Translations under genes and position numbers: made by a program | NCBI GenBank assembly: GCA_023091665.1 | Contig: JALJCQ010000003.1 | Span: forward strand, 62,001 to 126,000 | Reading direction: 5' to 3' | Length of the DNA: 64,000 nucleotides | Source: Pythium myriotylum | Lineage: Eukaryota > Oomycota > Peronosporomycetes > Pythiales > Pythiaceae | Notes under the pieces: generated by a model | Seen by the model: only the letters and a program-made list of their open reading frames with translations | Databases searched by the model: none | Told to the model about the DNA's origin: nothing | Shown: one piece after another, positions 24,710-54,542 of the stretch | How positions within the stretch are numbered: the stretch's first letter is position 1 | How the letters are laid out: the number at the start of each line of letters is the position of its first letter

Positions 24710-26593
24710 CTAGTTTGCTGCACTTGAGGCGTACACCGCGCGACGAGACCGCATCCACCACCTTCGCATTGGTGTCGCAGCATTCGCCACGGGCTTGACT
24801 GTAGGTGCTGGACGCAACGGTGGGATCATCTCCATGGGTGTGTAGTAATCCAGGTTTCCTCGAATGAAGATGAGCTCGTCGTCCGGACACCCAGCAACCT
24901 CCCAGATCAGTCGAAAGCTCCACAGTAACACCGTGAACAAGCGATTCATGAGCAAACTCTTCGTGCGCATCGAGACGGTCTTGTTGTGGAAATGAAATTC
25001 CATGATCGTGCGCTCGCGGAAGAAATCGGCCACATCCGAGAAGAAAAATCCGTAGAGGATGAACATGATACCCGTGAGAGAAGCAAAAATGACAGGCAAC
25101 AAGAAGATCTTGCGGAAGCCCAGGTTCTTCTTCACCGGCGGTGTCAGCGCGTCTAGCGTCAGCACACTGTGAAACCACAACAGCCACGCAAGCGCGCCGA
25201 GCGTCCGAAAGTCCCACTGCACCATGTCACAAATGAGGAAGATTGCCATGGTGAACTGAACTGAGGAGAAGAGGAAGTCGAAGTTGTGTAGGAGAGACTT
25301 GATGAGTCCACGGTGGAAGCTGACGACACAAGTGATGAAGAAGACGAGGGTGGAGAGCAGCGAAATAAGTGCGAACGAGTACTCCAGCGCGGTCGGTGGA
25401 AACTCTGACCCGGCTGGCCGTCTGGTGATCGTGATCACAGTCGATATGAAACCTACGATAGCGTTGGCGTGGAAGAAGATCCATTTAATGGGTGACAGCG
25501 GTGCACGAAGAGGGCTGAGATGTGGGACAAGAGTTTGTCGGGCGTCAATCGCGCTGAGTTTCATTGACACGAGTGACACTTGCTGCTGCGTGTCGGATTG
25601 AATTCGTGGGGAGGTGTCTATTGAAGCGCTGCATGGCGTAATGTCGTTGGATTCCTTTGCAATGGACTCGGTCATCGCGATTGCGTTCTTCACTGTCGGC
25701 TGGCGTGTGGGTGAAAACGACGACAGAGTCTTGAGTACCCGTGGCGATTCGTTAAGCGATGCACGCCTCACCATGAAAGTCCTCGTCTCAGTCTGCAGTG
25801 AGCAGGCCCCTGCAGTCTCGGTTGACGGCTTTTTCAGTTGTAACTTTGATCGAAACACCACGCAGCGGATGGTCTGCAGCGAAGCTGAATGTGTGATCAG
25901 CACTTTGCTCTTTGCGTAGCCCTTTCGCGCGACAAAGATGGCAAGCGTGAGCGACGTATTGGCGAACACATCGACGAGCGAGATCGTGACCTTAGCCACT
26001 GGTATGACACGATAATTTCCATCATCTGTGTCGAGGACTCGGAAGAACGTGGCTACACCAAAAACCAGAAGAACCGGTGCCGCAACGCGCGTACTGCGGA
26101 TGCTACTGGTGACCGTGCGGAAGTTCGAGTCGATGAGAATAACGAGCTGCGTCCCGATGATGCCACCGTAGAGACTGAGGACGCGGATATCTGAGTAGAA
26201 GGACGCGAGACAGCACCAATTGATGGTGTTCATGACGGTGAAGAACCAGAACTCGTATTGTCGCGGGAGGATACGCAGCACGTCGCTGCTGTTCATCAGG
26301 ACTCCAAGGCAGGTGGACGGCATCGCGAGTAGCACAGTCGGAAACGTGAGCCAGAGCCCAACGCTTCGCGGCACCAACAGGATCACGATCATCAGCACGC
26401 CGGAGAAGCGATACATGGCGCCAAATCGTGCGTACATTCGCTTCATCAAGTCCATGAACTTGAGTTGGTATGGTTTCGACACTAATGCCGCGATTGGGGT
26501 CTTCTCCAAGTCGATGAGTGGCAGTGTGTGGGCGACTTCCATGCGGTAGATCCAATCAGCGGCTTTATCATCAGAGGAGTCTGTCGTTGCCAT
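24710..26593 (-). CDS. Multi-pass membrane protein with internal duplication (family member A)
   Basis: I do not recognise this family. 627 aa, about 10-12 hydrophobic helices, no signal peptide. It has two homologous halves. Half 1: ID-x3-T at 27-32, YEFWF at 113, D135-x-R137, D155, strand RCVVFRSKLQL ending at 253. Half 2: ID-x3-T at 349-354, FDFLF at 438, D461-x-R463, D481, strand LIFIRGNLDYY ending at 584. The Asp-to-Asp spacing is 20 in both. The halves are joined by a polar loop (about 255-340) rich in Ser/Thr. The start is ATG 26593 (MATTDSSDDKAADW), as the ORF upstream begins with TTG. It is the first of three tandem same-strand genes; 398 nt in half 2 are identical to member B. Transporter, channel or sensor are all possible; no motif decides. 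Confidence 0.85.
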   Translation of the reverse strand: MATTDSSDDKAADWIYRMEVAHTLPLIDLEKTPIAALVSKPYQLKFMDLMKRMYARFGAMYRFSGVLMIVILLVPRSVGLWLTFPTVLLAMPSTCLGVLMNSSDVLRILPRQYEFWFFTVMNTINWCCLASFYSDIRVLSLYGGIIGTQLVILIDSNFRTVTSSIRSTRVAAPVLLVFGVATFFRVLDTDDGNYRVIPVAKVTISLVDVFANTSLTLAIFVARKGYAKSKVLITHSASLQTIRCVVFRSKLQLKKPSTETAGACSLQTETRTFMVRRASLNESPRVLKTLSSFSPTRQPTVKNAIAMTESIAKESNDITPCSASIDTSPRIQSDTQQQVSLVSMKLSAIDARQTLVPHLSPLRAPLSPIKWIFFHANAIVGFISTVITITRRPAGSEFPPTALEYSFALISLLSTLVFFITCVVSFHRGLIKSLLHNFDFLFSSVQFTMAIFLICDMVQWDFRTLGALAWLLWFHSVLTLDALTPPVKKNLGFRKIFLLPVIFASLTGIMFILYGFFFSDVADFFRERTIMEFHFHNKTVSMRTKSLLMNRLFTVLLWSFRLIWEVAGCPDDELIFIRGNLDYYTPMEMIPPLRPAPTVKPVANAATPMRRWWMRSRRAVYASSAAN

Positions 26594-26829
26594 CGTCGTT
26601 GGCAAGGTCTTGGTGGTGTCAGCCTTGGTGGGGATTAGTGTAGACTCGTGCGCTCACTGAAGTTGCATCAGTTCAACTGATCGTACGACAAAAATAGCAC
26701 GAGCTTTTCGGGTGGGCTTGCGTGTACCACACGTATGGGGGAAAGTCAACCAGGACACACCAAACTTTCCGTGACGGTTTTGTCTTACTAGACTGTCTCC
26801 AGCTACAGGGCCACAGTAATTCAACAACC

Positions 26830-28812
26830 TCACTGCGCCTCGCCAGCAGTTGCATGTACTACGGCTGAGCGTGAGCATGGTCGCCTTGCCCACTTTTTGA
26901 TCGGCTTGCTACTTGGACCTCCATGGTTAGAAGCCACTGCAGACGAGTCCTTCAGTGGAGGGAACATTTCCATCGGAGTGTAATAATCCAAGTTCCCGCG
27001 GATAAAGATGAGCTCGTCATCTGGACAGCCCGCAACCTCCCAGATCAGTCGGAAGCTCCACAGCAACACCGTGAACAAGCGGTTCATGAGCAAGCTCTTG
27101 GTTCGTAAGCCGATCGATTTTCCTCTGAAGTGCATTTCCCATAACGTCCGCTCCACGAAAAAGTCCGCAACGTTGGAGAAGAAGAAACCATACAAGATGA
27201 AGATAATCCCCAGAAGTGTGGTGAAGATGACAGGCAACAAGAAGATCTTGCGGAAGCCCAGGTTCTTCTTCACCGGCGGTGTCAGCGCGTCTAGCGTCAG
27301 CACACTGTGAAACCACAACAGCCACGCAAGCGCGCCGAGCGTCCGAAAGTCCCACTGCACCATGTCACAAATGAGGAAGATTGCCATGGTGAACTGAACT
27401 GAGGAGAAGAGGAAGTCGAAGTTGTGTAGGAGAGACTTGATGAGTCCACGGTGGAAGCTGACGACACAAGTGATGAAGAAGACGAGGGTGGAGAGCAGCG
27501 AAATAAGTGCGAACGAGTACTCCAGCGCGGTCGGTGGAAACTCTGACCCGGCTGGCCGTCTGGTGATCGTGATCACAGTCGATATGAAACCTACGATAGC
27601 GTTGGCGTGGAAGAAGATCCATTTGAGACGAGATAACGGCATCTGAACTGACGAAACACGGGGAAGCACTGTTTTGCGCACATCGATAGCGCTTAGCTGC
27701 ATAGATACGAGTGTGACTTGCTGCTGGTTCTCCATTGAATGTGTTATTTCATCTCGGGGATTTGCGCACTGACCTCCTTCAGTTCTATCGTGAGCGTTTG
27801 GGCTGGTGCACAATCCATCGGCAGTATTGGCGTCAAAATTCTGTGATCTGACGCTCGGTCTCACGGATTGAGCTATCTCGAATGGAACGACATTGATCAG
27901 ACTTTCCATCCGATTTATTGATTGCGGCTCGAATGAGGAAATGGTCTGGACAACGCGGGGTGACTCGCCGTGCATTGATGGCTGCATCACGTATGTACGG
28001 GTCTCGGTGCTTTCATGATGGAGCTCAGGTGGTCCGCCTGTAGGCTTCTTCAGCTGGAGCTTTGATCGAAACACCACACAGCGAATCGTTTGCAGCTTTG
28101 CCGAGTGCGAGATCATGACCTTGCGTTTGGCGTAGCCTTTGCGTGCGATGAAGATGGAAAGCGTTATTGCTGTATTGACGAAGATATCGACCAGAAATAC
28201 CTTGACCTTCGCCACAGGAATGATACGATAGTTGCGATCATCAGTGTCGATGACACGGAAGAAGGTGGCCGTCCCTAGCACAAGTAATACCGGCGCGGCA
28301 ACACGTGTGCTCCGGATACCGGCGACGACAGTGCGGAAGTTCGAGTCGATGAGGATGACCATTTGGGTGCCAACGATACCACCGAAGAGACTGAGGACGC
28401 GAAAGTCCGAGTAAAAGGATGCGAGGCAGGTCCAGTTGATCGAGTTCATGATCGTGAAGAACCAAAACTCGTATTGGCGAGGGAGGATGCGCAGTACATC
28501 GCTACTGTTCATCACAACCGAGCAGACAAGCGCGGGCACTGCCAGCAAGAAAGATGGAACCGTCAACCAAAACCCAACTTCTCGGGGTACCATGAGGATC
28601 ACGAGCAGGAAGACACCAGACACACGGTACATGACGCTGAAGGAGTGGTACCAACGCCGCATCACGTTGAGAAACTCTATATGATGTGCGCGAGATAGTA
28701 GCGAGGCGATTGGGGTTTTGTCCAAATCGATCAGCGGTAGCCGATGGCCGACTTCCATGCGGTAGATCCACTCGGCCGCATCTTCGGTGGCTGCCGTAGC
28801 AGCCGTCTCCAT
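26830..28812 (-). CDS. Multi-pass membrane protein with internal duplication (family member B)
   Basis: 660 aa from ATG 28812 (METAATAATEDAAEWIYRMEV), closest paralogue of member A and colinear with it: LPLIDLDKT, YEFWFFTIMN, SDFRVLSLFGG, IDSNFR, then in half 2 LSAIDVRKT, FDFLF, WDFR, LDALTPP and DDELIFIRGNLDYYTP. The central polar loop is longer than in A (about 265-370) and dissimilar, with His/Asn/Ser-rich sequence, whereas the following transmembrane block is nucleotide-identical to A. Function unknown. The 236-bp spacer to A contains no gene. Confidence 0.85.
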   Translation of the reverse strand: METAATAATEDAAEWIYRMEVGHRLPLIDLDKTPIASLLSRAHHIEFLNVMRRWYHSFSVMYRVSGVFLLVILMVPREVGFWLTVPSFLLAVPALVCSVVMNSSDVLRILPRQYEFWFFTIMNSINWTCLASFYSDFRVLSLFGGIVGTQMVILIDSNFRTVVAGIRSTRVAAPVLLVLGTATFFRVIDTDDRNYRIIPVAKVKVFLVDIFVNTAITLSIFIARKGYAKRKVMISHSAKLQTIRCVVFRSKLQLKKPTGGPPELHHESTETRTYVMQPSMHGESPRVVQTISSFEPQSINRMESLINVVPFEIAQSVRPSVRSQNFDANTADGLCTSPNAHDRTEGGQCANPRDEITHSMENQQQVTLVSMQLSAIDVRKTVLPRVSSVQMPLSRLKWIFFHANAIVGFISTVITITRRPAGSEFPPTALEYSFALISLLSTLVFFITCVVSFHRGLIKSLLHNFDFLFSSVQFTMAIFLICDMVQWDFRTLGALAWLLWFHSVLTLDALTPPVKKNLGFRKIFLLPVIFTTLLGIIFILYGFFFSNVADFFVERTLWEMHFRGKSIGLRTKSLLMNRLFTVLLWSFRLIWEVAGCPDDELIFIRGNLDYYTPMEMFPPLKDSSAVASNHGGPSSKPIKKWARRPCSRSAVVHATAGEAQ

Positions 28813-28975
28813 GATATCTGCGCCTTTCCTGACACAAGTGTCCGACGACGCTTGTGTGCCGTGCAAGGGGGCTGATCGAACTTCGGTTCTGACCTTACCA
28901 ATTCCAAATTTGGACAGGACGTGTATTCCCTCATTTAAGGCTGCAAGTCAAAATTCCCCAAGCGTCAAGTCTTCG

Positions 28976-31231
28976 CTAAGGCTTAGGTATTGGTGAAGTC
29001 ACAGTCAAGCCATCCACTGACGCAGAGCCTGAGAGGCTTAATCGCGAGGTGGCGACTAAGGCGTTGAGTTCAGCTATCGAGGGCGACTTTCTAGCCACAG
29101 GAGTTCGATGGATTGGTGCGCACACGCTAGGCCGTGACGCCACCGAGATCGCGGTGATAGCCGACAAATCGGTCTCGAGCAGCGCAGCAGCAAGCGAGGA
29201 GCTTGGTGGTGGACTTATCAAGCACGAAATACTCGTCGGCGGCTGTGCCAGAGGTTCAAAGGTAATAGGAAGCTGTCGAAGAGTGGATGCACGATGGAAT
29301 GTGCGTGTCAAAGATGACCTCCTCCTCCCGGAGGAGATTTCTGTTGAAGCCAATAAAACTGCCGACCCGTCCGAGTCTCGTCGAGCTCCAGCTGGCAGCA
29401 CAGCTTTGATCGAACCGCCGCGGACGCTGCCTGTGAACGTGTCGAATGGGCAATAGTAATCTAAAGTCCCTCGAATCAGCACAAGTTCTGTGTCTCGCGC
29501 TCGGAGAATTTGCCACATCAAACGGAATGTCCACAAAAGAATCGTCAGGATGCGGTTGAGCAGAATTGTTTTCGTACCAGTCTTGATATCGTGCTTACCA
29601 AGCCGCCAGTGGACTAGTACGCGATTGCTGAGAGTTGGCGAGTCGATCATGATGGCGTAAAGTACCGATAACATTCCAATCCAGACAGCAATGACGACAG
29701 GGACGGCGAACTGCTTTCGGAATCGAAGCTGCTTTCGTGTCGGCGGTGTCAGCGTGTCAAGGAGCAGGATCCAGTGAAACCAGATGCAGTACGACCCAAT
29801 GGCCCAGCAGCGATTATCCCACTGCATGGTGTCCGCGAGGCAAATAGCCGCTAGTGAGAACTGGAGAGAAGGGAAGAGGAAGCTGAAGTTGCGCAGCATC
29901 GCCCGCGCAAAATCGCGTTGGTATGCGCATGCGAATGCCGAGCAGAAGATCGTAGTACAAGCAAAGCTGAGCATAGGGATGGCTATCTTCCACGTCTGTG
30001 GCAGACTGATCAACGCGGACGGGTCGGACTCCCCTGGCACTAGCATTGAACCGCCAGAGAGCAACAAGCCGAGTGCACCGATGCAGTAGAACATCGCGAC
30101 ATCGCACGTGCTGATGAGGTGCTGTATTTTCCACCAACTCTTGAACAGCGTCTTGCAAGCGTCGATAGTGCTAAGTCGGAGCGAAACGAGCGTGAGCTGC
30201 TGTCGCGAGTTGAGAACACGGCCGGCGCGCATTCCGGGAACGACTTTCTGGGCCGTGATGCCCAGTTTCTTGAGCACGACGCTCGTTCCGTATGCGCGTT
30301 TGAAAGGACGGATCCCGTGGTCGTCGACGATGTGGACGGCGTTGTGTGCTGTTAGAGGACTCACTTGAAGGACACACCGTAGGATCATGCAGCGGACGAC
30401 CCGCGACGACGCGTGGCGCCTGAAAAGCAGCTTGCGCTTGTTATAGACCTTGCGCACGAGAAAGAGCAGTAGCGTCAAAATTGCGTTGAGGAATATCTCG
30501 GTGAGGTCGACTTCGAGTTTCCCAATTCGCAGTGATGCGACCTGGTAACTCGGAAGGTCGAGCTGTCGCAGGAACACCAAGATCGCGAGGCTGAGGAGCA
30601 CCGGGATCGCGAATGCACAGGTCTTCACGGCTGGTACGAATGTGCGGAAGTTGGCGTCCATGAGAATCATCTGTTCCGTGTCAAGGCACGCAACGACAAG
30701 GAAGAGTACACGCATATCCTGGCACAAAGCCGCAAGCGCGGCCCACGTGCCAAGGTTGATCACCGTAAAGAACCAGAACTCATACTGCTTGAGCAATATC
30801 CACGTCAGATCGGCACTGAGCATTGCGTAGGAGCAACATGATGCTGGTAGCGAGAGCAAACATGCGGGTACGACAAGAAATGGTGCAACGGATCGCGGCG
30901 CAGCAACTGACGCCATCCCAAGCAGCAATCCAGTACGGTTCAGGAACGTAAGCAATCGAAAGTGCCGCTTGACCCACTTGAGGAACTCGAGGTTTTTGGC
31001 CGGATTGAGCAGCTTGTACGAAAGTGTGAGCCGGAGGTTAGTCACTGGCAGCCGCTGCGCTGCTTCGAGCCTGTAGATGTGGCTCTCAATTGGTTTTGCG
31101 AGCGCGAGTGGGTGCGGAGGTACCTCTTTGCTCACCGAGTCTGCCAAACGAGGCAACACGACGGCTGACAAGCGAGCAGCGGCCGTCTGGGCGCGCTTGA
31201 GGACCGGGGTGTGCTCGGCCGCTCGTCGCAT
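28976..31231 (-). CDS. Multi-pass membrane protein with internal duplication (family member C)
   Basis: 751 aa from ATG 31231, more diverged than A and B but with the same plan: IYRLEAAQRLPVTNL near the start, YEFWFFTVIN, QDMRVL, MDANFR, then LSTIDACKT, FSFLFPSLQF, WDNR, LDTLTPPTRKQL and LVLIRGTLDYYCPF. It has an extra N-terminal arm of about 55 residues and a long Ser/Arg-rich cytoplasmic-looking tail of about 140 residues after the last motif, with several potential phosphorylation stretches (RRRSSLTRTF). The upstream in-frame GTG at 31261 is ignored. Function unknown. Confidence 0.82.
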   Translation of the reverse strand: MRRAAEHTPVLKRAQTAAARLSAVVLPRLADSVSKEVPPHPLALAKPIESHIYRLEAAQRLPVTNLRLTLSYKLLNPAKNLEFLKWVKRHFRLLTFLNRTGLLLGMASVAAPRSVAPFLVVPACLLSLPASCCSYAMLSADLTWILLKQYEFWFFTVINLGTWAALAALCQDMRVLFLVVACLDTEQMILMDANFRTFVPAVKTCAFAIPVLLSLAILVFLRQLDLPSYQVASLRIGKLEVDLTEIFLNAILTLLLFLVRKVYNKRKLLFRRHASSRVVRCMILRCVLQVSPLTAHNAVHIVDDHGIRPFKRAYGTSVVLKKLGITAQKVVPGMRAGRVLNSRQQLTLVSLRLSTIDACKTLFKSWWKIQHLISTCDVAMFYCIGALGLLLSGGSMLVPGESDPSALISLPQTWKIAIPMLSFACTTIFCSAFACAYQRDFARAMLRNFSFLFPSLQFSLAAICLADTMQWDNRCWAIGSYCIWFHWILLLDTLTPPTRKQLRFRKQFAVPVVIAVWIGMLSVLYAIMIDSPTLSNRVLVHWRLGKHDIKTGTKTILLNRILTILLWTFRLMWQILRARDTELVLIRGTLDYYCPFDTFTGSVRGGSIKAVLPAGARRDSDGSAVLLASTEISSGRRRSSLTRTFHRASTLRQLPITFEPLAQPPTSISCLISPPPSSSLAAALLETDLSAITAISVASRPSVCAPIHRTPVARKSPSIAELNALVATSRLSLSGSASVDGLTVTSPIPKP

Positions 31232-31609
31232 TTTTTGGTTCGTGAGTCGAGTAACGAGCACACATCCACCGGGACAGCCGAGGGCCAGTGACTAAGGCTT
31301 CTGGCACACTTCGTGCAGCGGGTGACCAGAGACTCCATGGACGAAACGCCTTCCGATCGATCGGGCGGAGAAAACACCAAAATAACTCGATTGAGATCGC
31401 GCGGCCACCAGACCGGAGGACCTATTTCGGGGGCAACACCACTTCCCGTGAATCGAACACATGTAGATATAGTGAGGACTATGCAAGACCGTGCGGTGGC
31501 TCCTTCTCATCTTGTCGTCGGACTCGCTCCATGCGTGTGAATTCAAACACACTAAAGTTCGCAGAGATGCAAATCGGGTGAATTTTGAGGTCATTCCTTC
31601 TCTCGTTCT
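31232..31609. other. Intergenic region
   Basis: 378 bp upstream of membrane-protein gene C and downstream of the first RidA-like gene. Short overlapping ORFs only; nothing recognised. Confidence 0.4.
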
Positions 31610-39802: not shown

Positions 39803-42067
39803 TTACAACTGCGCACTCGACGGCGCCGGCGGTGGTGTCGCCAGATCTTTGTTGCTGTCGCTGCTGACGCTGCTGCTGAACCCACGAGCCAGCGAGATCG
39901 TCGCCTTGACGGTGTTGACGGCCGACTTGAAGCGACGGCGCGCGTTGAACTTGCGCAGCTCCTCAAGAGCCGTCGTGAGCGGCGCGTTGCTGACGTCGGT
40001 ACCGACGATCCACTTGTGCTGCAGCAGCTGGGTGGCCGTCCAACGCTTCGCAGGATCCACGATGAGCATGTTGGAGATCAAATCCTTGGCGTCATCCGAG
40101 ACGTTGTCCCAGTACGGCGAGTCGAACTGGAAGCGACCCGCCTTGATGATACGGAAGAGCATCGCCTGGCTGTCGTGGTGGAACGGTGGGTAGCCACAGA
40201 GCAGGATGTACGTAATGACACCAATGCTCCAAATGTCCACGGCCGTGTCGTACGGCGTCTGCGAGAGGATCTCCGGTGCCACGTAGCCCGGCGTGCCGCA
40301 CGTGGTGTTGAGACCGCTCTCGTCGACCTTCTTCGCGAAGCCGAAATCTGCCAATTTAATGTTGGCGTCATCCTCCTTCGAGGTGAGCAGCAGGTTCTCG
40401 GGCTTGAGATCGCGATGCACAACCTGGCGGTCGTGGCAGTACTGGATGGTCTCCAGCAGCACCTTGACGAGATCCCGCGCCTCTTTTTCGCTGTAAAAGT
40501 TCTTTTCCACAATGCGGTCGAAGAGCTCGCCGCCCGAGACGAGCTCGGTCACGAGGTAGTAGGTCGCTTCTTCAAGGTAGACGGCGTAGAGCCGCATAAT
40601 GTTGGGGTGCTGCATCTCCTTGAGGATCTCGACTTCCTGGTGGAAGGCCTCGATGTCTTCCTCGCCCAAGCCCTCGATTTTCATGGCCTTGACAGCAAAT
40701 TTTTGGTTGTTCTTCTTGTTGGTCGCCTCGTAGACCGTCGAGTACGCGCCGGAGCCGAGCTCCTTGCCGAACGTGTACTCGTCCTTGATGTGGCGGTCCG
40801 TGTAGATGACCGTGCCGCGCTTGCTGAGCTGCAGCGCCTTGGCCAGCGAGATGGTGGCCTTGACCGTGTTGACGGCCGACTTGAAGCGGCGGCGCGCGTT
40901 GAACTTGCGCAGCTCCTCGAGCGTGCCCTTGAGCGGCACATTCGCGACTTCTTCGCCCGTGATCCACTTGTGGTTGAGCAGCTGCTCGGCGGTCCAGCGG
41001 TCCTTGGGCTCGACCACGAGCATCTTGGAGATGAGGTCCTTGGCGTCGGCCGAGATCTCGTCCCACCAGGGCGAGTCAAAGACAAACGTGCCGGCCTTGA
41101 TCTTGCGGAAGAGCGCCGGCTGGCTTTCGTCGTGGAACGGCGGGTACCCGCAGAGCAAGATGTACGTGATGATGCCGATGCTCCAGATGTCCACGGCCTT
41201 GCCGTACGGCTTGGCCTTGAGGATCTCGGGCGCGACGTAGCCGGGCGTGCCGCACGCGGTCGCGAGTCCGTCGCCGTCGACTTTCTTCGCGAAGCCAAAG
41301 TCGGCCAGTTTGATGTTGGCGTCGTCGTTCTTGCTGGTCATGAGCAGGTTCTCGGGCTTGAGGTCGCGGTGGACGACGTTCTGGTCGTGGCAGTACTTGA
41401 TGGTCTCGAGCAGCACTTTGACGAGGTCGCGCGCCTCGCGCTCGCTGTAAAAGTTCTTCTCGACGATGCGGTCGAAGAGCTCGCCGCCGGAGACGAGTTC
41501 GGTCACGAGGTAAAAGTAGTTGGCCTCGGTGAAGACGTCGTAGAGCGCCATGATGTGCGGGTGCTTCATCTGCTGGAGGATCTCGACCTCGATCGCGAGC
41601 GCGTCGAGGTCTTCCTTGGTGAGCTGCGCGCGCTTGATGCACTTGACGGCGTAGTGCACGCCCGTCTGCTTGTGCGTGGCCTCGCGCACGACGCTGAACG
41701 AGCCCGAGCCGAGCTCCTTGCCGAGCGAGTACTCTTGCAGGAACGTGCGCGTCGGGTTGGTCTGGAGCTTGCTCACGGGCACGTGGAAGCGCACTTCGCG
41801 CTCGACCGTGTTGGTCTCGAGCAGCAGCGCGCGCACGCGAGCGAACGAGAGCTCGCCCTTGGAGAAGTCGTGGCCGTTGACGCCGAGCAGCACGCTGCCC
41901 GTGGCGATCTTGCCGCTCGCCTCGATGACGCCGCGCTGGCCGTTGGCGCCCGTGGGCGCGAAGCCGTCGACGACCACGCGGCGCTCGCGCTCCGTGATGA
42001 GAATGCCCAGCGGGCCCGGCGGCACGCGCAGCGAGACGGCCTCGAAGACCTCGGGACACGCCGCCAT
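39803..42067 (-). CDS. PDZ-like domain plus two tandem CaMK-type kinase domains
   Basis: 754 aa, single exon from ATG 42067. Residues 8-97 are a PDZ-like domain (PPGPLGILI). Kinase 1 (about 113-370): Lys142, HRDLKPEN (Asp235), DFG 256-258. Kinase 2 (about 430-685): Lys460, HRDLKPEN (Asp553), DFG 574-576. Both carry every catalytic residue and a CaMK-type lobe (WSIGIITYILLCGYPPFH). Each kinase is followed by the same basic helix LEELRKFNARRRFKSAVNTV, which looks like an autoinhibitory/calmodulin-binding segment, so the domain-plus-tail unit was duplicated as a whole. No membrane segment; presumably cytosolic Ser/Thr kinase. An Inr-type promoter lies 38 nt upstream. Confidence 0.92.
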   Translation of the reverse strand: MAACPEVFEAVSLRVPPGPLGILITERERRVVVDGFAPTGANGQRGVIEASGKIATGSVLLGVNGHDFSKGELSFARVRALLLETNTVEREVRFHVPVSKLQTNPTRTFLQEYSLGKELGSGSFSVVREATHKQTGVHYAVKCIKRAQLTKEDLDALAIEVEILQQMKHPHIMALYDVFTEANYFYLVTELVSGGELFDRIVEKNFYSEREARDLVKVLLETIKYCHDQNVVHRDLKPENLLMTSKNDDANIKLADFGFAKKVDGDGLATACGTPGYVAPEILKAKPYGKAVDIWSIGIITYILLCGYPPFHDESQPALFRKIKAGTFVFDSPWWDEISADAKDLISKMLVVEPKDRWTAEQLLNHKWITGEEVANVPLKGTLEELRKFNARRRFKSAVNTVKATISLAKALQLSKRGTVIYTDRHIKDEYTFGKELGSGAYSTVYEATNKKNNQKFAVKAMKIEGLGEEDIEAFHQEVEILKEMQHPNIMRLYAVYLEEATYYLVTELVSGGELFDRIVEKNFYSEKEARDLVKVLLETIQYCHDRQVVHRDLKPENLLLTSKEDDANIKLADFGFAKKVDESGLNTTCGTPGYVAPEILSQTPYDTAVDIWSIGVITYILLCGYPPFHHDSQAMLFRIIKAGRFQFDSPYWDNVSDDAKDLISNMLIVDPAKRWTATQLLQHKWIVGTDVSNAPLTTALEELRKFNARRRFKSAVNTVKATISLARGFSSSVSSDSNKDLATPPPAPSSAQL

Positions 42068-50676: not shown

Positions 50677-52572
50677 TCAGATGTCGTCGTCGTCGGCGCG
50701 CGCCGGTCGGTGGCGCGTGTGGTGCGCCGGGAAGAACCCATAGGGGCTCGCGTACTCGACGAGCCCGCGCACGAGGTGGAGCTCGTCGTCGCGGCGCGCG
50801 AAGAGCACGAAGACCTGGCGCGAGCTCCAGAGCGCGATCGTGGCCACGCGGCCGAGCATGACCGAGCGCGTGGAGAGCGCGAACGTGTGGTGCGAGATGG
50901 CCATGTCCACGATCGTGCGGTTGCGCAGCCCGTTCTCGTCCACGAAGAGCACGACGTAGACCAAGCCGAGCCCGATAAGCAGCGAGGCCGCGAGCACCGT
51001 CGCCGGCAGTGCGTGGGGCAGTCGTAGAGCGCGCTTGGCCAGCGGCGTGAGCGCGTCCATCGAGAGCGTCCAGACGACCCAGTTCATCCACGCAAGCACG
51101 ACGAGCACGTGGTCAGGTTGCCAGCAGAGCATGTCAAGCACGCTCACGTTGTACGCCGTGAACTGCGCGAGCGAGAACGCAAAGTCGAAGTTGCCGAGAA
51201 GCACGCGCAGTAAGTCGCGCTGGAAGAAAAGTGCGAAGACACCGTAGAAGGCGCACGAACAGACGTACGCGGCTATTGCGCGTATACGATCGCCGCGTGT
51301 GAGGGGCATCAGAGAGCAACCATCGAGTGTCGTAGTTGGACGCAGCGTTGTCTGGCTCCCGGCTACGAGCGAGTGAACGTTGTGGTAGGTTTGGACGGCA
51401 AGCAGGAAAAATCCGATTCCACCAAAAGTGTAGAGAGCCAAACGAAGAAGATTCTGGTGGCGCAAAATCCACTCGGGTGGTGCACGCCAGAGGTACGACG
51501 GAAGTATTGTCCGGTGCGCGTCAACGCGCGTGAGCGGTAGCGGAGACAGCCGCACGTGCTGCTGGCCGTTTGAGCGCGTGACGTACGGGTGGCCACGTTG
51601 TTTGCGGAGTCGTGGTGTAGCGCGAACATGAGCGTGGGTCGACCGGCGTATATCAGTCTGGAGTGGCACACGCGCCTCGGTTTGGACCGGCACGAGTCGA
51701 AGTGTTGCCTTCATGACAACACATTTGACGGTTAGGTACCCATTCCCCGTGTGGGAGTGTGCACGCCGATACTTGAGTACAATCATCTTTGCCAGAAGGA
51801 TAGCCAGTGTCGGACCCGTGAAGTTCATAATGTCAGCGGCGTCGTACACTCGATGACCAACGACTTTAATTACGAAGAAGTTGGCGTTCTCGATTGCACG
51901 CAGCGACACGCAAGCGCACATTAGCAGTGCGACCGGGATGCCCAGTTTCGCAGAGCGTACGATAGTCGACATCGTTCGGTAACTTGCATCCGATGATATT
52001 ACGATCTGGAAGGAGAATGATCCCATGAAAGACATCAGTGCGCGCGAGTCACCCAGCGCCAACGCGAATGCGGTCCAGTTGATCGTATTGATGATCGTCG
52101 TGAACCAGAACTCATAGCTGGTCGAAAGCAAGCGGAGCACATCGAGCGACATGAAGAGAACAGTCGCAAATAGGGACACTGTGGCCGGAACCAACACTGC
52201 GACAAGAAGACTACGGAATGGGCCTTGCTCAACGAAAAGAATTGCGCCAAAGCAGAGCACACCGATTCGAAATCCCCACGACAAATGATGGAAATGACGA
52301 CGTAGAAATACTACGACACGGCGGTGTGTTTGTGGTTTGAAGATTGTTCTTGCAAGCGTACATGAGAGATCGATGCGGGGAAGCTCACTTGCTGAACGTA
52401 CTATGTACGTGTGGGGGCTAATCGATGATGTCGAACCTGAGAACCGCAAGTCATTCGTGGTGGGTCCAGCAGTTATTGACGCAATAGGGGGTGGGGCCGG
52501 AAAAATTGCTGTCATTCCGTGCCCGTTGGGCATGCCCGTGAGTGCGAGCGGAACGTCTGTCATCGACAACAT
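50677..52572 (-). CDS. Multi-pass membrane protein with internal duplication (family member D)
   Basis: 631 aa from ATG 52572. Same family as the three genes at 24.7-31.2 kb, 19 kb away: ELPRIDLSCT, YEFWFTTIIN, GDSRALMSF, SSDASYRT in half 1; LTRVDAHRT, FDFAFSLAQF, MDALTPLAKR and DDELHLVRGLVEYASPYGFFP in half 2. In half 2 the D-x-R motif is degenerate (PDHVLV), although the Asp 20 residues later is kept. The tail is acidic (ADDDDI). About 10-12 membrane helices, no signal peptide. Closest to member E, with which it forms a tandem pair. Function unknown. Confidence 0.84.
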   Translation of the reverse strand: MLSMTDVPLALTGMPNGHGMTAIFPAPPPIASITAGPTTNDLRFSGSTSSISPHTYIVRSASELPRIDLSCTLARTIFKPQTHRRVVVFLRRHFHHLSWGFRIGVLCFGAILFVEQGPFRSLLVAVLVPATVSLFATVLFMSLDVLRLLSTSYEFWFTTIINTINWTAFALALGDSRALMSFMGSFSFQIVISSDASYRTMSTIVRSAKLGIPVALLMCACVSLRAIENANFFVIKVVGHRVYDAADIMNFTGPTLAILLAKMIVLKYRRAHSHTGNGYLTVKCVVMKATLRLVPVQTEARVPLQTDIRRSTHAHVRATPRLRKQRGHPYVTRSNGQQHVRLSPLPLTRVDAHRTILPSYLWRAPPEWILRHQNLLRLALYTFGGIGFFLLAVQTYHNVHSLVAGSQTTLRPTTTLDGCSLMPLTRGDRIRAIAAYVCSCAFYGVFALFFQRDLLRVLLGNFDFAFSLAQFTAYNVSVLDMLCWQPDHVLVVLAWMNWVVWTLSMDALTPLAKRALRLPHALPATVLAASLLIGLGLVYVVLFVDENGLRNRTIVDMAISHHTFALSTRSVMLGRVATIALWSSRQVFVLFARRDDELHLVRGLVEYASPYGFFPAHHTRHRPARADDDDI

Positions 52573-52772: not shown

Positions 52773-54542
52773 CTAATCCTCAATGTGCGGGATGTGTTTG
52801 TTATGTTGGCGAGGGAAGATACCATATGGACTCTGGTACTCGATGAGACCTCGAATGAATCGCAACTCGTCGTTCTCCCGCTTGCACAGGACATACACTT
52901 GTCGAGTACACCAAATCGAAACTGTCGCCACGCGGCCTACCATTATTGATCGTGTTGTGAGCACAATCGTCTGATTGTTTTTGATCGTGGCACTGAAAAT
53001 GAGGCGATCCTGTAGACCAGCATTCGTGCAGAAGAGAACCATGTACACGGTCCCGAGCCCAGAAACAAGAGCCCCCGCGAGTGCAAGTGGTGCAATCTGG
53101 CGAGGTAGCCTGAAGATGGCTTCTTTGGCTAATGGTGATAACGCATCAACACTCAATGCCCAGACACACCAAAGAGTCCACGTCCACACAATTGCGATGT
53201 GCTGAAGTTGCCAGTGGAGCATGTCGAGCACGCAGAGTGCATAGCTGATAACTTGCGCAAGCGAGAAAACGTAGTCGAAATTCGTCCAAAGCAGCCAGAG
53301 AAGGTCACGCTGGTAAAAGAGACCAAGGCATGTGCAGAATAATGTAGAACAGAGTGCACCTGCAACAGCTCGTCCTGCGTCACCCGCAGCTAGCATGTGC
53401 GCTTTCGACGCGTCAACTCCAGCTTGATCCGCAATAGTGTAAGCTCGGATTACGCGCACCGCCTCAACGGATGCCAATATGTAGCCTATGGCGCCAACAC
53501 TGTACAATACGAATCTGAGCTTGTATTGATTCCTCATGACCCATGGCGGTATCATGCCCCAGTGTCTATGAGGTAGCACTGTCCGGCAGATGTCGATGCG
53601 TTCAACAGGCGGTCTTGACAGCATGAAGCTTTGCTGGTATGGCGATGGTAGCTCGAATGAAGCACGTTTGCTTACAGTAACCTGCGAAGGCAAAGCTTGA
53701 GGTAAGTTCACGGCTGGGGTTAAACGAAGCGTGGATTTGACAGTCGCGCAGGGTACGCGATAGTGTCCGACCAAAGAGACTTCGCATCCGTCGGCTCCTC
53801 GTTTCTTAAGGAAGACCATTTTCGCGAGCAATATTGCAAGTGTGCTGGCAGTGAAGCCAATAATATCTGTAGCTTGAAGCAAACGCTGGCCTCGCACCTC
53901 TATAGAGAAGAAGTTGGCCTCGGGAACTGAGTGCAGCATGACAACTGCACAAATAGCGATGTTGATGGGAATCGCAAGAGCCATCGTGTTGGTAGCAGTC
54001 TGGAAGGTTCGAAAGCTGGCGTCGACCGTGATGACGATCTGGAAAGCAATCCATCCAACAAACGCAGCTACAGCGCGCGAGTCTCCTAAGAGAGCGGCAA
54101 AAGCAACCCAGTTCGTGACATTGATCATGGATGTGAACCAAAAGTCGTAACTCTTGACTAGATGCTTGAGCACATCGACTGACATGAAGAGGACAGTGAA
54201 CACAAGCGAAGAGCTCGCCGGAATAACAGTTACCAGGAGAAGTGTTCGTGTCACACCATGATCCAGAAAGAGCGACCCTGCAAGACCCACGATGCCGAGG
54301 CGAAAGCCTAGAACGAGGTAGTGGAAATACTGGAGCACAAACTTGACAAGAATACGGTCGTACTTCGCAGAAAAGAGCGTCGTCGAGATAGTGCGCGATA
54401 GATCCAGCTTCGGGAGTGGCTCGGACGGGCGAAGAACAAATTCAAGTTGTAAAGGTTGATCCTCAGCTTGTTTCTTGACGAGCCGCCTCTGCCCCTCTTG
54501 AGACAAGCCCTGCAGAGGGGAGACGCGACCATAGCTTTTCAT
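52773..54542 (-). CDS. Multi-pass membrane protein with internal duplication (family member E)
   Basis: 589 aa from ATG 54542, the shortest member. Half 1: PLPKLDLSRT, YDFWFTSMIN, GDSRAVAAF, VDASFRT. Half 2: VERIDICRT, FDYVFSLAQV, VDALSPLAKE, DELRFIRGLIEYQSPYGIFP. The second-half D-x-R is lost (LQHIAI), as in D. The central polar loop is short. D and E share the ending YGFFP/YGIFP followed by a His-rich tip, whereas A, B and C end in YYTP or YYCP, so two subgroups exist. Function unknown; no enzyme or ligand motif recognised. Confidence 0.84.
   Translation of the reverse strand: MKSYGRVSPLQGLSQEGQRRLVKKQAEDQPLQLEFVLRPSEPLPKLDLSRTISTTLFSAKYDRILVKFVLQYFHYLVLGFRLGIVGLAGSLFLDHGVTRTLLLVTVIPASSSLVFTVLFMSVDVLKHLVKSYDFWFTSMINVTNWVAFAALLGDSRAVAAFVGWIAFQIVITVDASFRTFQTATNTMALAIPINIAICAVVMLHSVPEANFFSIEVRGQRLLQATDIIGFTASTLAILLAKMVFLKKRGADGCEVSLVGHYRVPCATVKSTLRLTPAVNLPQALPSQVTVSKRASFELPSPYQQSFMLSRPPVERIDICRTVLPHRHWGMIPPWVMRNQYKLRFVLYSVGAIGYILASVEAVRVIRAYTIADQAGVDASKAHMLAAGDAGRAVAGALCSTLFCTCLGLFYQRDLLWLLWTNFDYVFSLAQVISYALCVLDMLHWQLQHIAIVWTWTLWCVWALSVDALSPLAKEAIFRLPRQIAPLALAGALVSGLGTVYMVLFCTNAGLQDRLIFSATIKNNQTIVLTTRSIMVGRVATVSIWCTRQVYVLCKRENDELRFIRGLIEYQSPYGIFPRQHNKHIPHIED

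Follow-up and report, generated by a model that had tools for sequence, protein, structure and literature searches.

A predicted 12-helix membrane protein family with an internal six-helix duplication in Pythium myriotylum

Introduction

Five homologous open reading frames (ORFs), members A to E, lie on the minus strand of a 64,000-nucleotide stretch of the genome of the oomycete Pythium myriotylum (contig JALJCQ010000003.1, positions 62,001 to 126,000; hereafter the window) and encode products of 589–761 amino acids. An initial annotation, made from the letters of the window, described them as a membrane protein family built from two homologous halves. The locus raises the question of whether these proteins arose by internal duplication, whether they belong to a known family and what they might do. 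Sequence comparison, together with two structure models, supports the reading that a unit of about six helices underwent an ancient internal duplication.

Results

Comparison of the two halves

Residues of member A are numbered from its TTG start codon, the first ATG being residue 5. The two halves are located as follows:

25820..26554, minus strand: half 1 of member A, residues 18–262, with helices 1–6, a hairpin (200–209) and a strand (245–258); Asp159 at 26129–26131
24812..25594, minus strand: half 2 of member A, residues 338–598, with helices 7–12, a hairpin (533–547) and a strand (577–588); Asp485 at 25151–25153

Profiles of the halves were cut at these residues from a 45-row alignment that comprises 37 ORFs of the genome and 8 proteins from elsewhere. 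HHalign matched half 1 to half 2 with a probability of 96.8%, an E-value of 2.1e-10 and a score of 72.4 over 218 columns at 14% identity. The best of 100 column shuffles scored 17.4 and the reversed profile 14.8. The match covers the unit in full, from the ID-x3-T motif as far as the sixth helix, in the register given by the initial annotation. With hmmsearch, the hidden Markov model (HMM) of half 1 exceeded 8 bits in 33 of the 45 half-2 sequences, with a top score of 33.1, against none of 900 shuffled and one of 45 reversed sequences (9.4 bits); the half-2 HMM did so in 29 of 45 half-1 sequences and in none of the 900 shuffled or 45 reversed controls. The longest ORFs of three 7tm_1 loci of the same genome gave HHalign scores of 10.6–14.1 against either half. 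These three loci (L001–L003), elsewhere in the genome, are weak 7tm_1 matches that fall under the curated cut-off. Chance spacing of motifs is ruled out as an explanation by HHalign and hmmsearch scores above those of the shuffled and reversed controls.

The initial annotation had placed the ORFs at the positions where they were found, and its motif pairs (27/349, 113/438, 135/461 and 155/481) are all present, corresponding to Ile31/Ile353, Tyr117/Phe442, Asp139/Asp465 and Asp159/Asp485 in the present numbering; its residue numbers are lower by 4 because they were counted from the first ATG. The ends that it gave for the closing strands (253 and 584, about 257 and 588 here) agree with the predicted strands, which end at 258 and 588.

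Structure models and membrane topology

AlphaFold2 models were computed for members A and E from 16 sequences each. Model A has a mean pLDDT (predicted local distance difference test) of 76.1 and a pTM (predicted TM-score) of 0.74, with 469 of 631 residues at or above 70; the corresponding values for model E are 73.2, 0.75 and 397 of 589. The two models are not independent evidence, since the same 16 sequences were used. In each half, both models show six long helices; a short helix precedes the third of these, a beta hairpin separates the fifth from the sixth and a strand follows the sixth. The count of six fits the five to six helices per unit estimated earlier. The linker between helices 6 and 7 is long and variable, has low confidence in both models and is mostly disordered in them.

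A crude hydropathy count gave 6–16 segments per protein and is too noisy to establish the number of helices. The charges of the loops favour an N-in topology, with exceptions at loops 2–3 and 11–12 and after helix 12. From these charges we infer that the N- and C-termini are cytosolic; the 6–7 linker would therefore also be cytosolic, and the hairpin loops 5–6 and 11–12 extracellular. The models predict proteins with 12 transmembrane (TM) helices, encoded by an oomycete multigene family, while the duplication itself is established from sequence.

Search for a known family

When 43 members were scanned against Pfam at E ≤ 10, the matches were scattered and weak; none fell below E 0.005 or occurred in more than two members, in keeping with the earlier statement that the proteins share no motif with a nameable family. 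Transporter families were absent from the scan save for a single weak match to a cobalt-transporter-like profile (CbtB, E 0.6), the profile of the major facilitator superfamily (MFS) matched no member, and no signalling domain was listed. The otopetrin profile PF03189 was likewise unlisted for all 43 members, in a scan whose HMMER filters drop most matches above about E 0.1. Searching all six frames of the genome with PF03189 gave no match, but this search is uninformative because no control genome gave a match either. A PDB profile search with a 16-row alignment gave organic solute transporter alpha as its sole match (E 0.5, not significant), and this was lost with a 43-row alignment. A viral structure library yielded no match at E ≤ 0.001. 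A known sequence family is ruled out by these Pfam and PDB profile searches, which returned no significant match. Two outcomes contrary to the initial annotation had been named beforehand, a confident profile match to a known transporter, channel or receptor family and halves scoring no better than shuffled membrane proteins, and neither occurred.

No description of the family was found in the full text of open-access papers; in passages of one of these, on the membrane proteome of Phytophthora parasitica zoospores, the uncharacterised membrane proteins were left aside (PMC12223298). Proteins with 12 TM helices in two repeats are already known; the oomycete family and its signatures are absent from the libraries searched.

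Genomic distribution and relatives

The members in the window are:

24710..26605, minus strand: member A, 631 amino acids from TTG, first ATG at 26593; modelled with AlphaFold2
26830..28866, minus strand: member B, 678 amino acids from TTG, first ATG at 28812
28976..31261, minus strand: member C, 761 amino acids from GTG, first ATG at 31231
50677..52572, minus strand: member D, 631 amino acids from ATG
52773..54542, minus strand: member E, 589 amino acids from ATG; modelled with AlphaFold2

Their identity to member A is 71% (B), 32% (C), 29% (D) and 24% (E). The description as a five-member family holds for the window but not for the genome (58.7 Mb in 55 contigs), in which member A as query gave 85 matches and member E 76 (E ≤ 1). 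These fall into at least 44 loci, spread over nine contigs: C3 (13), C4 (10), C13 (7), C7, C22, C17 and C1 (3 each), C9 and C24 (1 each). This number is a lower bound and excludes a weak C1 match (E 0.12). The 13 loci on C3, the contig of the window in genome G000, are confined to roughly 0.5 Mb close to one of its ends (86713–582767).

Of the 44 loci, 37 contributed a single open frame of 470 codons or more, and the other seven are split or fragments. These were left out of the 45 rows (L044, L048, the second gene of L049, the first of L052, the last of L057, L061 and L066), including, by hand, split frames longer than 470 amino acids in L048 and L057. Among the kept loci, at least two (L046 and L060) have one domain end in a second frame, and two ORFs (L051:2-2131 and L063:1-2127) reach the edge of the fetched stretch. 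In L044, L048, L049:4361-5992, L057:5778-7522, L061 and L066 the coding sequence is divided between two frames or interrupted by a single in-frame stop; the split members may be pseudogenes, contain introns or reflect assembly errors. L052:349-1110, a half-gene fragment of 254 codons, has 371 bases identical to the full-length gene L051:2343-3989 a few kb away and, judged from this identity, is a recent partial copy of it.

Members A and B also share an identical tract:

25089..25486, minus strand: copy in member A, 398 bp, covering helices 7–10 and the start of helix 11
27227..27624, minus strand: copy in member B, identical to 25089–25486 of A

The 60-column windows that flank the tract are 55% and 77% identical. 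Because 398 identical base pairs lie inside much less similar genes, the tract is most simply read as a probable recent gene conversion over helices 7–10.

In a tree of the 45 rows the end branches are long (median 0.85 changes per column) and tandem neighbours cluster; A and B group with the P. oligandrum protein, followed by the Globisporangium proteins. The relatives P0001 (Pythium oligandrum, Poli38472_010410), P0004 (Globisporangium polare, Gpo141_00012564) and P0006 (Globisporangium ultimum) matched at E 1e-154 to 1e-178, and P0010 ([Pythium] brassicae, 1139 amino acids) at E 5e-235; all four are annotated merely as hypothetical or uncharacterised. In P0010 the first half belongs to the family and is followed by a PF04937 region, annotated as one protein, which may be an annotation fusion. 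P0010 (long), P0009 and P0011 (short) and P0012 (found later) were left out of the 45 rows. An organism is named for 4 of the 12 relatives found, all of them Pythium-type oomycetes, in a protein search that scored only the roughly 8000 candidates sharing most short exact words. A pattern search of viral contigs and of prokaryote genome contigs matched 283 and 55 stretches, respectively, none of which encodes a relative.

The flanking genes are ordinary, and include a short-chain dehydrogenase, kinases, a CW/PHD-finger protein, an argininosuccinate-lyase-like protein, an RsmB-type methyltransferase, an M1 peptidase, an aminotransferase and a WD40 protein. On the minus strand, a single 754-amino-acid ORF (39806–42067) combines two protein kinase stretches.

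Conserved residues

Asp159, Asp485, Gln450 and Phe446 are invariant in the 45 sequences. Position 118 is Glu or Asp in all of them, and Asp139, Arg141 and Trp464 (44/45 each), Asp443 and Arg565 (42/45 each) and Trp562 (41/45) are nearly so. Residues of the same kind occupy corresponding positions in the two halves (118/443, 139/465, 141/467, 159/485, 220/558 and 227/565), with Asp465 (27/45), Arg467 (30/45) and Arg227 (33/45) looser than their partners.

The conserved ionisable and aromatic residues are concentrated in or beside the helices. This argues against a receptor or membrane scaffold that would lack transport activity and signal through the cytosolic strands and the long 6–7 linker, as does the absence of signalling domains from the Pfam scan. 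The many loci, their wide divergence, the several split copies and a linker that is variable and modelled with low confidence would all suit such a role, which we nevertheless regard as very improbable.

Discussion

Resemblance to otopetrins and possible function

Otopetrins are the longest PDB matches for both models, with middling Z-scores and a high root mean square deviation (rmsd); the Foldseek match is not significant, with a TM-score by query length of 0.29 for model E. The predicted fold, with two six-helix halves side by side in one chain, weakly resembles that of the otopetrin proton channels most, and membership of the otopetrin family is not claimed. The likeness might reflect common helix packing only, in an ion channel or pore whose 2×6 plan arose independently. 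The lack of sequence similarity to otopetrins speaks for such an origin, together with the middling Z-scores at high rmsd and the insignificant Foldseek match; but otopetrins provide the longest matches for both modelled members in a PDB that holds few otopetrin entries and many other 12-TM proteins, and we regard an independent origin as improbable.

The same models bear on a secondary active transporter, in which two six-helix repeats would surround one substrate path in an MFS-like alternating-access mechanism and the invariant aspartates would serve as coupling sites. MFS proteins, too, consist of two repeats with an even number of helices, Asp159 and Asp485 are invariant acids, and at least 44 loci would suit transporters of differing substrates. 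For model E, Foldseek lists the MFS-type proteins FLVCR1, NupG, PepT2 and OAT1 at E 0.43 and above. Their TM-scores by query length, however, are at most 0.17 against 0.29 for the otopetrin, no transporter row exceeds 240 aligned residues in the VIA lists (Foldseek's best chains only), and the Pfam scan offers nothing beyond CbtB. A transporter is unlikely in our judgement.

We tentatively favour an otopetrin-like conducting protein with 2×6 helices derived from internal duplication, a possible reading on which each half would be a potential conduction unit controlled by its own ionisable cluster. The clusters would consist of Glu/Asp118, Asp159 and Arg227 in half 1 and of Asp443, Asp485 and Arg565 in half 2, in a presumed pairing; both would lie towards the cytosolic side when counted along the proposed topology. 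Protonation of the acids may loosen their pairing with arginine and open a passage to protons or some other small cation. Helices 3/4 and 9/10 would carry a second acidic/basic pair at their outer ends (Asp139-x-Arg141 and Asp465-x-Arg467). The diverged paralogues could then form a repertoire of pH- or ion-responsive channels.

It is more doubtful that Pythium-type oomycetes possess, in at least 44 loci, widely diverged proton channels of the otopetrin fold, an architecture described so far for animals. Such channels would have branched off very early within the otopetrin superfamily or, alternatively, represent an independently invented 2×6 double-barrel plan, and would provide a repertoire for pH or ion sensing.

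Comparison with known systems

The family shares with the MFS its predicted 12 helices in two six-helix repeats, and differs from it in the lack of a Pfam match and in the low TM-scores.

Otopetrin proton channels (OTOP, PF03189; solved for CeOtop8, mOTOP2, zebrafish OTOP1 and XtOTOP3) mediate sour taste in animals. On the evidence of the sequence halves and the models, the oomycete proteins have the same arrangement of 12 TM helices, six in each of two homologous halves. If their N-in topology holds, they also share external loops 5–6 and 11–12 and a cytosolic 6–7 linker. They differ in the absence of a sequence match and in having beta hairpins, plus strands after helices 6 and 12. Passages of PMC6483595 describe XtOTOP3 as a dimer of 12-TM subunits with cytosolic termini and two structurally homologous six-helix halves, with constriction triads Gln-Asp/Asn-Tyr, an FYR motif in the C-half and the interface residues Glu321, Asp509 and His669. 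The FYR motif of otopetrin helix 12 occurs in none of the 45 members, which conserve Trp562 and Arg565 there instead. In the 45 sequences helix 12 has no conserved histidine, and helix 6 lacks a conserved acid except for Asp212 (33/45), where the helix begins. The invariant Gln450 is located in helix 9.

The otopetrin linkers 5–6 and 11–12 are extracellular and zinc-binding according to parts of PMC12549899, and take part in gating according to parts of PMC9348849. The former, in the same parts, describes these channels from nematodes to humans, and a BLAST search reported in a portion of PMC7910559 gave no otopetrins in fungi.

The at least 44 loci of one oomycete genome constitute a large 12-TM membrane-protein repertoire without an assigned function in the libraries searched. 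The halves of the oomycete proteins are recognisable by sequence, whereas those of XtOTOP3 are of low sequence similarity (passages of PMC6483595). Because the duplication is still visible in sequence at about 14% half-to-half identity, the family is a good case for studying the origin of two-fold pseudo-symmetric membrane proteins. If the resemblance to otopetrins is true, proton channels of that architecture would extend to the stramenopiles.
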